From Selenomonas sp. F0473 (GTDB lineage Bacteria > Bacillota > Negativicutes > Selenomonadales > Selenomonadaceae): a DNA stretch of 64,000 nucleotides. The position numbers were made by a program, and so were the translations under genes. The stretch is from contig NZ_JH992902.1 of NCBI RefSeq assembly GCF_000315545.1, positions 1,858,638 to 1,922,637 of the forward strand. Reading direction: 5' to 3'. Below the pieces are notes generated by a model. The model was not told the origin of the DNA, did no database searches, and saw only the letters and a list, made by a program, of their open reading frames with translations. The stretch's first letter is position 1. Each line of letters opens with the position of its first letter. Shown piece by piece: positions 9,149 through 43,156 of this stretch.

Positions 9149-9429
9149 CAGCCGATCTTGGCGCCTAGCGTCGTTATTCGTCGAATACTTCGCTCGACAT
9201 AGCTCTTAACTACGCCTTCGCTTGTATTCTCCTCATGCCTAGCTATGCATCCAAGCTTGACTGTCACTCGGGTTGCGGTATGACGTTGCGGCGTAACGCG
9301 GTATTTTCACACCTAGCATCGTCATTTTGTACGGGGATACGTTATGTCGCCCTCTTCCGAACGATGCGCGCCTTACATCGTGGGCAAATGCGCCTCACTG
9401 CAACGCGCCGAAAAACCTTCACCTAAATT
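9149..9429. other. Non-coding spacer with repeat-like, inverted-repeat sequence
   Basis: About 280 bases without a credible gene. It holds short imperfect repeats: CCTAGCGTCGTTATT and CCTAGCATCGTCATT about 140 bases apart, GCGGTAT twice, CTTCGCT twice, and inverted pairs such as GTCGA/TCGAC and CATAGCT/AGCTATG. The string ATCTTGGCGCCT near its start recurs at about 53295 in another intergenic gap. This suggests a degenerate dispersed intergenic repeat. Confidence 0.35.
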
Positions 9430-9456
9430 TAAGTTTTTCCAATATCCTGCCGATAT
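9430..9456 (+). promoter_or_regulatory. Sigma-28 (SigD/FliA) promoter
   Basis: TAAG, 15 bases, then GCCGATAT. This matches the flagellar sigma-28 pattern TAAA-N15-GCCGATAT at all but one position. It lies about 50 bases before a flagellar-operon gene. The matching sigma factor gene is in this window at 47319. Confidence 0.78.
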
Positions 9457-9505
9457 ACACGGTGGAGCATTTTATTTATTTACATAGACCGGAGGAGGTG
9501 ATGCG

Positions 9506-9883
9506 ATGAGAATTGCAGACGAGCTGACGGCGCTGGTCGGGCAGGGAAGCGGGGGGACCCGACAGGGACGAAGAGCGATAGGCGGCAGCAAAGCGTCGTT
9601 TGCACAGGTACTCGAGGGAGAGAGACAGCGCGTCCGTTTCTCGCAGCATGCGGAAGAGCGGCTGCAAAAGCGCGGCGTGATGCTCACGAACAGCGAGCTC
9701 GAGAAGCTCGCCGGTACGATTGACCGCATGCGGGAAAAGGGCGCGAGGGAAGCCCTGATCTACATGAAGGACAGTACGGCGATGGTCGTCTCCGTGACGA
9801 ACCGCACCGTGATTACGGCGCTTGACGACGTGACCGCGGCAGACAGTATTTTTACGAACATTGACAGTGCAGCCATTATCTGA
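9506..9883 (+). CDS. Flagellar-operon protein, TIGR02530 family
   Basis: This small 125-residue protein is of a family that in Firmicutes and some other flagellates sits between flgD and flgE. Its role is not well defined, but the position links it to hook assembly. The recognisable part is the C-terminal two-thirds, with RFSQHAEERLQKRGV, a conserved ALIYMKDSTAMVVSV strand pair and a final TNIDSAAII. A strong GGAGGAGGTGA ribosome binding site lies just before the ATG. A sigma-28-type promoter is immediately upstream, so it is probably a late-class motility gene. The usual neighbours fliK and flgD are absent, which makes this pair with flgE a detached piece of the flagellar locus. Confidence 0.8.
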   Translation: MRIADELTALVGQGSGGTRQGRRAIGGSKASFAQVLEGERQRVRFSQHAEERLQKRGVMLTNSELEKLAGTIDRMREKGAREALIYMKDSTAMVVSVTNRTVITALDDVTAADSIFTNIDSAAII

Positions 9884-9903
9884 GAAAGCTGGACCTACGG
9901 GAG

Positions 9904-10005
9904 GCTTTTGACCGCGCTCGACTAGTGCGGTCGGCATGGGGACACTGCGTATGATCGGTGTTTCCCGCGGCGATACGGACCTATAGGGATCCCGTCCGCC
10001 GCAAA
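9904..10005 (+). promoter_or_regulatory. Structured spacer or leader ahead of flgE
   Basis: Three hairpins can be drawn in a row: GACCGC/GCGGTC, GGG-ACAC/GTGT-CCC, and GCGG/CCGC plus CGGAC/GTCCG separated by a bulge. None has a T tract, so they look like RNA structure in a transcript running from the upstream gene into flgE rather than terminators. Confidence 0.4.
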
Positions 10006-10013
10006 GATAACGG

Positions 10014-10048
10014 CTCTTCCTTTGCACTGTCGCACAAGCAAAGGAGAG
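10014..10048 (+). promoter_or_regulatory. Hairpin sequestering the flgE ribosome binding site
   Basis: CTCTTCCTTTGC (10014-10025) is complementary to GCAAAGGAGAG (10038-10048) with one bulged base, giving eleven pairs around a 12-nt loop. The 3' arm contains the whole AAGGAGAG Shine-Dalgarno of flgE, whose ATG is seven bases further on. In this fold ribosomes could not reach the site. Confidence 0.55.
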
Positions 10049-10055
10049 ATTCATT

Positions 10056-12086
10056 ATGATGCGTTCCATGTTCTCGGGTGTTTCGGGCCTCAAGGGCCAT
10101 CAGACCCGCATGGATGTGATCGGCAACAACATCGCGAACGTCAACACGACGGGCTTTAAGGCGAGCCGCGTGACGTTTGCGGATATGATTTCGCAGAACC
10201 TTTCGGGCGCGTCCGCACCGCAGGGGACGATCGGCGGCGTGAACCCGAAGCAGGTCGGTCTCGGCATGTCGGTGGCGAGCACCGATCTCCTCTATACGAA
10301 CGGTTCCGTGCAGTCCACGGGCAAGAATACGGATATCGCGATCTCGCGCGGCGACGGCCTTTTCGTCGTCTCGCGCGGCGAGCAGAAATACTATACGCGC
10401 AACGGTGCGTTCGAGTTCGACGCGCAGGGCAACCTCACGATCCCGAGCACGGGTCTCTATGTGCAGGGCTATATGGCGAACAACGGCGTTGTGCGGCCTG
10501 CGGGCGAGAATACGACAAAGATTAACGTCCCCGCGGGCAAGTCGATGGAGGCGACGACGACAACGACGGCGTCCTTTACGAAGAATCTCAATGCGAGCAC
10601 GCCGGGCTACGAAGTGGCGAATACGCTCGTGCGCTATGCGGACGGCACGACGGGCACGGTCAGTTCCTATACGCCGACGGAGTCCGGCAGCTATATTCTG
10701 ACGACCAGCACGGGGAAGAAAATCAGAATCGCAAATACGGCGCCGGCACAGGCAATCGGTTCCGCGCCCACCGGTACGCTCTATACGTCCAACATCTCCA
10801 ATATCACGGCGAAAACCGGCGGTACGGTGGATTTGCAGCTCGACGTAGATACTTCCAATCCGTCGAGCCCACTCTCTATCGGCGGTGCGGCTACGGCGAA
10901 CCGTACGGGGCTGACGACGGGCACCTATGCCTTCGGCGACACCTACAATATCAGCGGCTCGATCACGGCGGCCACGACGATTGCGGGGACGCCGCCGACA
11001 GTGAAGCTGACACTTGACACGGACAATAACATCAATCCGGGATCTACCGTCGACGTGGTCGTCCCCAACCCGACGAGTTTCACTTATAAAGTGGGAGATA
11101 AGTATACGGGCCAGCTCAAAATCAAAAAGGTTACGGGTCATAGTGGCGCCACGGTGACGACGGCAGACGGCAATAAAGCCGAACTCACCGGAACGCTTGC
11201 CGTGACGAGCGCGACGCAGTCATACTCGCATACGGGCAGCGCAACGGACGGCACGATCACGGCGATTACGCGCGAATCCTCCTATGAGTTTGGCGGAAAA
11301 ACCGTATCCAGTATTTCGCTGAATACGAAGAGCGGCACCACTGTCGACGGTCTTGTCGGCCATAACTATGCTGCGGGAGATACGTTCTATCCTTCCGTCA
11401 CGGCGATGATCGAGGTGTATGACTCGCTCGGCGCGAAGCACTCCGTGCCCGTGGTATTTACCAAATCGGCAAACAACAAGTGGACGATGTCGCTCGGCAG
11501 CGGCGGAGACACCTACAATATTACCGAGGCGGACGGGACCACGACGACCGTCGCGCTCACAAAGACCGATCTGACATTCGATACGTCGGGCGCTTATGTG
11601 AGCGGATCGGCATCGCTCAATATGACCTATACGAACGGCGCCGCGCCGCAGCAGCTGACGCTGAATCTGTCTCCCATCACGCAGTACTCGGGTACGAGCA
11701 CGGTCTCGGGGACGGCGGACGGCAACGCGGCGGGCACGCTCTCGAAGGTCGAGATCGACAGCGCGGGCGTCATCACGGGCGTCTATACCAACGGCGTGCG
11801 TCGGACCGAGGCGCAGATCGCCATGGCGCAGTTCAACAACCCCTCGGGTCTGACGAAGATGGGCGGCAATCTCTATCAGGAGTCGAACAACTCCGGCACG
11901 CGCACGGTGAGCGGCGCGGCGGATATCGGATCGGAGCTGACGACTTCGGCACTCGAGATGTCAAACGTCGATATCGCGGATCAGTTCTCCGACATGATCA
12001 TCACGCAGCGCGGATTCCAGTCGAACTCGAAGATCATCACGGTCTCCGACGAGATGCTGGAGACGCTCATCAACATGAAGCGGTAA
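10056..12086 (+). CDS. flgE: Flagellar hook protein FlgE
   Basis: This 676-residue protein polymerises into the flexible hook outside the cell. The N-terminal rod-family motif is clear (MDVIGNNIANVNTTGFKASR, residues about 19-38), as is the C-terminal D0 helix (MSNVDIADQFSDMIITQRGF ending MLETLINMKR). Between them lies a long Thr/Ser/Gly-rich variable region, about residues 165-560, which explains the large size compared with ~400 residues in enterics. The first of two adjacent ATGs is used, seven bases after AAGGAGAG. That site is buried in a hairpin. A T-tailed terminator follows, so flgE ends its operon. Hook genes usually sit inside the basal-body operon, but here flgE lies near mutSL. 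Confidence 0.95.
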   Translation: MMRSMFSGVSGLKGHQTRMDVIGNNIANVNTTGFKASRVTFADMISQNLSGASAPQGTIGGVNPKQVGLGMSVASTDLLYTNGSVQSTGKNTDIAISRGDGLFVVSRGEQKYYTRNGAFEFDAQGNLTIPSTGLYVQGYMANNGVVRPAGENTTKINVPAGKSMEATTTTTASFTKNLNASTPGYEVANTLVRYADGTTGTVSSYTPTESGSYILTTSTGKKIRIANTAPAQAIGSAPTGTLYTSNISNITAKTGGTVDLQLDVDTSNPSSPLSIGGAATANRTGLTTGTYAFGDTYNISGSITAATTIAGTPPTVKLTLDTDNNINPGSTVDVVVPNPTSFTYKVGDKYTGQLKIKKVTGHSGATVTTADGNKAELTGTLAVTSATQSYSHTGSATDGTITAITRESSYEFGGKTVSSISLNTKSGTTVDGLVGHNYAAGDTFYPSVTAMIEVYDSLGAKHSVPVVFTKSANNKWTMSLGSGGDTYNITEADGTTTTVALTKTDLTFDTSGAYVSGSASLNMTYTNGAAPQQLTLNLSPITQYSGTSTVSGTADGNAAGTLSKVEIDSAGVITGVYTNGVRRTEAQIAMAQFNNPSGLTKMGGNLYQESNNSGTRTVSGAADIGSELTTSALEMSNVDIADQFSDMIITQRGFQSNSKIITVSDEMLETLINMKR

Positions 12087-12107
12087 GAATTTCATAGGAT
12101 TTACGGG

Positions 12108-12142
12108 CGAGCCTGCTGCAATATGCGGCGGGCTCGTTTTTT
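12108..12142 (+). terminator. Terminator after flgE
   Basis: CGAGCCTGCTGC pairs with GCGGCGGGCTCG (12 pairs, two of them T-G) around a 5-nt loop and is followed by six T. Confidence 0.9.
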
Positions 12143-42534: not shown

Positions 42535-43156
42535 ACGGGATCGGAGTCAGCCGTCCGGAAATCGGGGCGCGCCCGGCGCGCGTGCAGGGATGCGTTTGGT
42601 TGTGATCGGTTCCTCGACAGGGGGACCGCAGGCGCTTCAAACCGTGATCATGGGGTTTCCCAAAAATCTCCCATGTCCCGTTGTCGTCGTTCAGCACATG
42701 CCCGCAGGTTTTACGGGAGCCCTGGCGGAGCGTCTGCACGGCATGGCGCAGGTCGCGGTCAAAGAGGCGCGGGACGGCGATATGCTGGCGCCCGGATGCG
42801 TTTACATCGCGCCCGGGAATCATCATTTGCGGATTCTTGACGATACGGGAGGCCGGCGTATTGCGCTCAGCGATGAACCGCCCGTTGGAAACCACCGTCC
42901 GGCGGTCAACGTGATGTACGAGTCCGCCGCACATTTCGGCAAGGACGTCGTCGCGGTCATTCTCACGGGAATGGGGCACGACGGACGGGATGGGATGTAT
43001 AAAATCAAGGAAAACGGCGGCTACTGCATTGCGCAGGATGAAGCGACCTGTGTCGTCTACGGAATGCCAAAATCCGTAATCGACGCAGGGCTGGCCGATG
43101 AGATATGCCCATTGCCGCGGATCGCCGGGGCGATTGAGGCGGCTGTGAGAAGATAG
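42527..43156 (+). CDS. cheB: CheB-type methylesterase lacking a receiver domain
   Basis: This 209-residue protein consists only of the methylesterase/deamidase domain that removes methyl groups from chemoreceptors. The catalytic triad is visible: Ser30 (GSSTGGPQ), His57 (VVQHMPAGFT) and Asp152 (LTGMGHDGRDG). The ~110-residue N-terminal receiver domain and hinge of ordinary CheB are missing; instead there are about 20 polar residues. The preceding DNA encodes the PilZ protein in another frame, so no receiver has been lost by frameshift next to it. The ATG overlaps the end of the PilZ gene. No cheR is present in the window. Confidence 0.88.
   Translation: MIERDRSQPSGNRGAPGARAGMRLVVIGSSTGGPQALQTVIMGFPKNLPCPVVVVQHMPAGFTGALAERLHGMAQVAVKEARDGDMLAPGCVYIAPGNHHLRILDDTGGRRIALSDEPPVGNHRPAVNVMYESAAHFGKDVVAVILTGMGHDGRDGMYKIKENGGYCIAQDEATCVVYGMPKSVIDAGLADEICPLPRIAGAIEAAVRR

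Follow-up and report, generated by a model that had tools for sequence, protein, structure and literature searches.

A conserved two-hairpin RNA ahead of flagellar hook and rod genes, with a predicted ribosome-site switch in a Selenomonas flgE leader

In Selenomonas sp. F0473 (phylum Bacillota), the gene of the flagellar hook protein, flgE, follows a small flagellar gene of the TIGR02530 family in a two-gene unit (TIGR02530 gene at 9506-9883, flgE at 10056-12086, both on the forward strand; positions are those of the window, the whole stretch of 64,000 nucleotides analysed), and the two are 172 nt apart. We propose, with a probability of about one half, that the leader between them is a conserved cis-regulatory RNA of two layers, in which a long-range helix and a hairpin at the ribosome-binding site (RBS) form a switch and for which the TIGR02530 protein is the best candidate as reader. 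The first layer would be an old motif of two hairpins, P2 with a GGA internal loop and P3 with a GANYGACNGA loop, standing ahead of the hook gene and of the distal rod gene flgG. In the second layer, proposed for the Selenomonadaceae, the motif would be closed by a helix, P1, in which the last bases coding for TIGR02530 pair with the leader. The 3' strand of P1 would, in this genus, carry an insert complementary to the Shine-Dalgarno (SD) sequence, so that P1 and the RBS hairpin compete.

That a conserved RNA is paired as P2 and P3 ahead of flgE and flgG was shown by comparing related loci. Among the best 80 of 525 loci with TIGR02530 relatives, 59 pass a strict loop pattern directly after the TIGR02530 stop codon and nine carry variants recognised by eye; the strict P3 pattern fails in L092-L094. 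P2 typically has the form GGCU-GGA-CCUC-loop-GAGG-A-AGCC and P3 a 12-nt loop with GANYGACNGA, the GGA and the GANYGACNGA being the best-conserved positions of the motif. From the 59 loci, those with the commonest spacing between P2 and P3 and at least five of six pairs in each stem were aligned in 27 rows, with L102, L113 and L137 dropped by hand, replacing a mixed 44-row MAFFT alignment in which the 3' strand of P2 was misplaced in some rows. Double changes occur at 12 of the 14 pairs, 97.6% of the cells are paired, and 115 cells are compensatory against 33 in shuffles. Since these rows were partly picked for pairing, the P3 stem was also counted free of such selection, with nothing but the loop as anchor: among the 336 cells of 56 distinct rows, 315 are paired, compared with a mean of 213 and a maximum of 240 in 1000 permutations of the 3' arms. 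The flgG-type leaders (24 including L244) had no part in building the model R1, which was made from the 27 rows and has 51 positions; fitted to it, they show double changes at nine of 14 pairs and 58 compensatory cells against 16. Extra insertions of about 30-100 nt, some of them repetitive, lie between the TIGR02530 stop codon and P2 in four loci (L111, L137, L167, L170).

The leader of the window belongs to this group: R1, which contains no leader of the genus, matches it at 9885-9932 with 37.7 bits (E 1.4e-7), and at E <= 1 it finds two places in the genome, both of them flgE leaders. A weak second match in the window (43087-43144, 8.9 bits, E 1.9) was taken as chance. P2 occupies 9884-9909, with its GGA internal loop at 9891-9893, and is backed by covariation in relatives as well as by the R1 match; P3 follows at 9910-9932, placed by the R1 match and the alignment. 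Two further hairpins, C (9938-9965) and D (9967-10002), both recognised in the fold, are genus-specific inserts whose sequences differ among the 12 orthologues. The fold of 9884-10013 has a z-score of -2.83, with none of 200 shuffles as stable. A preliminary description of this DNA had noted three hairpins upstream of the ribosome site, and these are present as P3, C and D; the fourth, P2, had been overlooked. Scans with Rfam 15 return 3 tRNAs only for the whole window at the gathering score, a single chance snoRNA match (9467-9529) and none in the leader for 9200-10200 at E <= 10, and nothing at E <= 1 in 20 loci of the family and 10 other loci. None of these scans matched the riboswitch for cyclic di-GMP (GEMM), and those of the window and of 9200-10200 matched neither the ROSE nor the FourU thermometer, all three being Rfam families.

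The distribution of the motif was determined in 398 genomes of the phylum that are at least 90% complete, with a cut-off of E <= 0.01 for R1. Matches were found in 247 genomes, and 244 of the 326 FlhA-positive genomes, about three quarters, carry the motif. Judged by N-terminal sequence, 27 of the 30 best matches lie before flgE and one before flgG, and two follow TIGR02530 at a contig end; 20 further loci comprise 16 before flgG and four before flgE. All eight downstream proteins tested are FlgG above the TIGR02488 cut-off. Directly 5' of the motif, 14 of the 16 flgG loci contain a reading frame that we call flgF-like, as the eight proteins tested all fit the FlgE/F/G subfamily with FlgF as best-scoring equivalog and only one of them passes the FlgF cut-off. 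L205 and L217 have no flagellar gene directly upstream of the motif before flgG, so that the motif is a true 5' leader there. When 12 genomes were inspected more closely, 17 of 19 matches at E <= 0.01 proved to be located at flgE, at flgG or after TIGR02530. Two or more matches occur in 97 genomes, all of which have TIGR02530; the flgG position of second matches was checked in the fetched loci and the 12 genomes rather than in all 97. TIGR02530 without a motif match is found in 27 genomes, maybe partly owing to misses, and the three of them that were rescored (G155, G197, G411) each match weakly, at E 0.01-0.24, directly behind TIGR02530. The motif-bearing species include the culturable Sporomusa ovata (L150). 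Both TIGR02530 and the motif are present in L167, from a metagenome-assembled genome labelled Geobacteraceae, which may reflect misbinning or a spread of the motif beyond the phylum.

Among the 398 genomes, TIGR02530 is present in 272 and csrA in 291. If the FlhA-positive genomes are divided by TIGR02530, the motif occurs in 242 of 268 that have the gene and in 2 of 58 that lack it. The same division holds where csrA is present (216 of 241 with TIGR02530, 1 of 42 without) and where it is absent (26 of 27 with, 1 of 16 without), and over all genomes the odds ratio for occurrence with the motif is 563 for TIGR02530 and 8.6 for csrA. As the motif tracks TIGR02530 with or without csrA, we infer that the TIGR02530 protein is the best candidate for a trans-acting reader of the motif. 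Hence, of the modes of control that the preliminary description had left open, control by a protein is suggested by this co-occurrence, while the analysis found no support for control by temperature or by a small RNA.

The RBS hairpin itself spans 10014-10048 and consists of 11 pairs and one bulged T, its 5' arm CTCTTCCTTTGC (10014-10025, the anti-SD arm) pairing with GCAAAGGAGAG (10038-10048). The SD of flgE, AAGGAGAG (10041-10048), lies wholly inside the 3' arm, exactly as had been described before. Folded in isolation, the 45-mer with this hairpin reaches -14.4 kcal/mol (z -3.30), a value equalled by 1 of 200 dinucleotide shuffles. At the flgE start the mean unpaired probability from -20 to -5 is 0.20; two others of the 8 start sites compared in the window have 0.23 and 0.26, so that low accessibility is not special to flgE. 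A close flgE, 85-100% identical in its first 150 residues, is present in each of the 14 genomes of the genus. In 12 of them the leader is kept; it measures 160-176 nt and has a nearly invariant block at each end, whereas the hairpins enclosed by these blocks vary freely. The remaining two (G006, G010) lack both an intact TIGR02530 end and the leader. The P3 loop has degenerated in these orthologues, GACU alone being retained in all 12 in place of the usual GANYGACNGA, and one pair of the P3 stem appears as GU, GC and AU. Conservation of the leader in relatives is thus borne out, in contrast to compensatory changes in the RBS hairpin, of which none could be shown: 10 of its 11 pairs never vary and the eleventh departs by one unpaired cell, hence covariation neither supports nor refutes it. 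The five loop bases CUGUC, dispensable for the stem, are invariant across the 12 orthologues. The hairpin is seen in this genus only and was added recently to an RNA structure that is older. In other genera (L045, L048, L117, L120), the 3' ends of the leaders contain anti-SD stretches just 5' of the SD, such as UUUCCUUC before AAGAAAGGAAG, which suggests that hairpins at the ribosome site may have been gained repeatedly.

When the last 33 nt of the TIGR02530 gene are included in the fold, the minimum-energy structure is P1 rather than the RBS hairpin in all 12 orthologues, and the consensus fold agrees. The 5' arm of P1 (9863-9881, in segments 9863-9871, 9872-9874 and 9876-9881) lies in the end of the TIGR02530 coding region, where GACAGUGCAGCC and the bases following it pair with bases that otherwise form the 5' arm and the loop of the RBS hairpin; the 3' arm covers 10005-10031 (10005-10010, 10012-10014 and 10023-10031). 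In this state most anti-SD bases are bulged out. P1 and the RBS hairpin are therefore predicted to exclude each other in this genus. A ribosome on the end of the TIGR02530 gene was mimicked by keeping the coding end and the leader's first 12 bases from pairing, upon which the mean unpaired probability of the SD fell from 0.35 to 0.02 over the 12 sequences; the free coding end gains 9 to 13 kcal/mol of ensemble energy in the three sequences calculated. By this prediction, a ribosome finishing TIGR02530 would favour the closed flgE site. Formation of P1 would block the strong RBS hairpin and leave flgE translatable, while a ribosome on the TIGR02530 end would block P1, let the anti-SD arm pair with the SD and turn flgE off. 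The hairpin of the preliminary description is confirmed, with the correction that the minimum-energy fold with the end of the upstream gene breaks it. Of the options that the description named, a coupling of flgE to translation of the upstream gene is specifically backed by the structure, but with the opposite sign, the upstream ribosome being predicted to close the SD.

Outside this genus, the leaders of other Selenomonadaceae with the motif are mostly 73-181 nt long, and their P1 strands often match despite third-codon differences (GCAGCA/UGCUGC, GCGGCA/UGCCGC, GCAGCC/GGCUGC). In a permutation test of 33 Selenomonadaceae loci, complementarity to the own partner strand averages 20.2 against 17.8 for permuted partners, and 0 of 2000 permutations are as high. 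The test ignores relatedness, for which 22 loci outside the family served as control; the groups were split by record title and taxonomy, two duplicates were removed, and loci were used only if a P3 end was recognised and the leader measured 60-190 nt. This matched complementarity supports P1 in the Selenomonadaceae. The coding strand of P1 contains five consecutive identical codons in the 12 genomes, compared with a background of 29 identical among 78 degenerate codons, which is at most suggestive of synonymous constraint.

A trans-acting factor bound to P2 and P3 would bias the choice between the two states, and the TIGR02530 protein, as the best candidate for this factor, would then regulate the synthesis of hook and rod at the post-transcriptional level. 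Its predicted structure, modelled from 54 sequences, has a predicted local distance difference test score (pLDDT) of 73, about 90 in the core, and consists of two helices followed by strands; a model from the single sequence was poor (pLDDT 49.9) and was not used. DUF4258 is weakly matched by 47 of the 54 proteins at E <= 1 (best 1.1e-4), a threshold at which the protein of the window itself gives no match, and in PMC11980606 this domain is listed as a toxin family of the BECR fold, that of RelE/ParE. The VIA-align list for TIGR02530 is headed by HigB2, RelE and ParE (Z at most 5.5), and a profile search among solved structures yielded 3 matches, all at the level of chance. The likeness to RelE/ParE and DUF4258 consists of these weak sequence matches and the predicted helix-helix-strands order, whereas TIGR02530 differs in lacking a toxin-antitoxin setting, in its conserved C-terminal tail IFTNIDSAAI and in its weak fold scores. 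TIGR02530 is perhaps RelE-like in fold, which we regard as a lead and not as membership. A further-reaching idea, tentative and more probably wrong than right, is that the TIGR02530 protein, as a domesticated, RNA-binding representative of the RelE fold, reads the motif at flgE and flgG and governs a post-transcriptional rod-hook regulon across the sampled phylum, largely separate from CsrA; in Selenomonas relatives its own coding end would have become a strand of the switch.

Several observations weigh against the proposed two-layer element and its reader. The motif is absent from 12 of the 80 TIGR02530 loci, whose leaders are short (18-57 nt). At the cut-off of E <= 0.01 false matches occur, L245 lying within an unrelated reading frame, and the match of L244 follows a flgF-like end with no flgG seen. 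P1 is unsupported in the 22 loci outside the Selenomonadaceae, where 120 of 2000 permutations are as high as the actual complementarity, and neither the RBS hairpin nor P1 at the level of the genus displays covariation, because both hardly vary. Furthermore, the GGAG core of the SD is predicted to stay weakly paired with flgE codons in the P1 state (-6.9 kcal/mol), its unpaired probability being 0.04 if the coding end is free, compared with 0.01 if it is blocked, hence P1 does not fully free the SD core. With respect to the reader, two genomes (G433, G537) carry the motif without TIGR02530, with a single match each, at flgG; they count against TIGR02530 as a necessary reader, although both are multi-contig assemblies, so that loss of the gene there is not proven. 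The co-occurrence is uncorrected for phylogeny, and TIGR02530 adjoins flgE. That the motif is a mere neighbour of TIGR02530 was considered and rejected, as TIGR02530 does not adjoin the flgG copies that were examined; linkage alone is therefore insufficient for these copies, although shared flagellar ancestry may explain them. Finally, the VIA-align Z of 5.5 is not above the usual noise, an unrelated kinase scoring 5.2, and Foldseek against the PDB gives nothing for TIGR02530 at E <= 0.001.

Other explanations of the leader have to be set against the same evidence. The hairpins could merely be elements of stability or processing that outlast an RNase cut and raise FlgE and FlgG over TIGR02530 and FlgF, with neither ligand nor switch. 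In the loci examined the motif is mostly found between cistrons, just past the upstream stop codon, and the higher copy numbers of FlgE and FlgG would fit such a role. Stability, however, requires stems and not conserved loops, yet GGA and GANYGACNGA are the most conserved parts; L205 and L217 have no upstream flagellar cistron from which to separate flgG, and the presence of the motif tracks one gene family. We consider this explanation rather unlikely. In a different reading the RBS hairpin is a thermometer, or a plain hairpin for weak initiation, that belongs to the genus and is unrelated to the older motif. The strong local hairpin enclosing the SD and its restriction to this genus would be expected, but in all 12 orthologues the 5' arm and the loop of the hairpin double as a strand of P1, the loop is invariant without being needed for the stem, and the leader is free of Rfam matches throughout; an independent hairpin thus seems improbable.

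Two rivals concern what the RNA would respond to. The GGA of P2 might be a site for CsrA, which together with FliW would repress translation of flgE and flgG as it does that of flagellin in Bacillus and Campylobacter. The genome of the window has csrA, as do 219 of the 247 motif-bearing genomes; GGA, exposed in the internal loop of P2, is the core of CsrA sites (PMC4894983), and several flagellar mRNAs of C. jejuni are repressed by CsrA according to the same paper (PMC4894983). However, a csrA match is absent from the other 28 motif-bearing genomes, so that csrA does not occur wherever the element does, and the association of csrA with the motif is far weaker than that of TIGR02530 and adds nothing once TIGR02530 is given. 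In addition, the P3 loop consensus contains no GGA, and B. subtilis has csrA while a TIGR02530 match is absent. On the grounds of the weaker association, the exceptions and the missing added value, CsrA was rejected as general reader, and control by CsrA appears improbable overall. The remaining rival is a metabolite riboswitch with P2-P3 as aptamer and with P1 versus the RBS hairpin as expression platform, in the usual layout of an on-switch. It would account for the conserved loops and for the overlap of a P1 strand with the anti-SD arm in this genus, as in translational riboswitches, and an Rfam match is absent. On the other hand, P1 is supported in one family only, the core is small with its 51 model positions, the genes downstream encode structural proteins and the occurrence of the motif follows that of a protein family, all of which render a riboswitch quite improbable. 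The two-layer RNA, with the TIGR02530 protein as candidate reader, remains the explanation that we favour, at the probability given at the outset.

The identity of the two genes and the transcript that joins them are supported as follows. The TIGR02530 protein (125 aa, TGA stop at 9881-9883) scores 95.1 bits with NCBIfam TIGR02530 against a cut-off of 83.2, which places it in the family, and 34.7 bits with PF12611 (cut-off 21.1). FlgE (676 aa) scores 55.4 bits with PF07559 FlgE_D2 (cut-off 22.7) and 248.3 bits with TIGR03506 (cut-off 70.25), and lies below the NCBIfam equivalog cut-offs for FlgE (best 382.6 versus 469). A sigma-28-like promoter, TTTAAGTTT-N12-GCCGATAT, is located at 9428-9456 on the forward strand, 5' of the TIGR02530 gene, with transcription expected to start near 9465. 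A pattern of this type recurs 45-49 nt 5' of the TIGR02530 start in 10 of 12 genus orthologues, with none in L008 and L009. As this promoter-like sequence is upstream of TIGR02530, the transcript should take in the flgE leader and, as far as sequence tells, position 10014; two outcomes that the preliminary description had named as refuting it, a leader lacking in relatives and a transcript that begins downstream of 10014, are to that extent not borne out. Downstream of flgE, a consensus scan predicts an intrinsic terminator of 16 pairs and a T-run (12105-12139, forward strand); 9 terminator-like sites were found in the region scanned against 2.7 expected. A second TIGR02530-flgE unit in the same genome (G000:C1:669427-671560) encodes a FlgE of 526 aa, compared with 676 aa in the window, and its 76-nt flgE leader has the motif and lacks the RBS hairpin; second copies are present in 9 of the 14 genus genomes. 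A different recurring leader precedes Selenomonadaceae flgE copies for which no TIGR02530 was found upstream (L057, L064, L065, L067-L070, L080; variants in L040 and L051). It contains a GGA hairpin of the type GACANGGARCGUC, which resembles CsrA sites.

Known systems share parts of this arrangement. In Salmonella, FlgE is reportedly under post-transcriptional control (Bonifield et al. 2000), and no such RNA motif is known to us there; the likeness, in another phylum, lies in a hook protein level that is adjusted after transcription to the stage of assembly. Translational riboswitches that sequester the SD have mutually exclusive P1 and SD hairpins in common with this genus, but here the 5' arm of P1 is within an upstream coding region and Rfam gives no match. 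A further parallel is offered by CsrA and FliW, which act on the mRNA of flagellin (hag in B. subtilis, flaA in C. jejuni) and exert a translational control of an axial protein that is tied to the stage of assembly, like the one proposed here; for C. jejuni, the control of flagellin mRNA by CsrA-FliW is described in PMC4894983. By contrast, the targets here are hook and rod, the RNA has two covarying hairpins with a second conserved loop, and its presence does not require csrA. A small RNA is processed from the C. jejuni flgE transcript, according to PMC11187230. Searches of the open-licence PMC literature found no paper that describes an RNA motif ahead of either gene, flgE or flgG, and the main text of the structured-RNA surveys examined contains no mention of flgE, flgG, flagell- or motility. 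An RNA structure before hook and rod genes is thus apparently undescribed.

The question of how cells bring the synthesis of hook and rod into step with assembly is old and has been studied mainly in a few model species. The translation control of the hook protein envisaged in the preliminary description is partly supported, and understates the wider motif at flgE and flgG, which had gone unnoticed. The likely purpose of the element would be to adjust how much FlgE and FlgG is made, both in proportion to the remaining flagellar proteins and according to the stage of assembly. Taken together, the motif points to a possibly overlooked control step in the building of the flagellum and offers a small, directly testable RNA along with a candidate protein partner, TIGR02530, and the case of this genus may illustrate how such an element can gain a lock on the ribosome site whose competitor helix is partly coding sequence.

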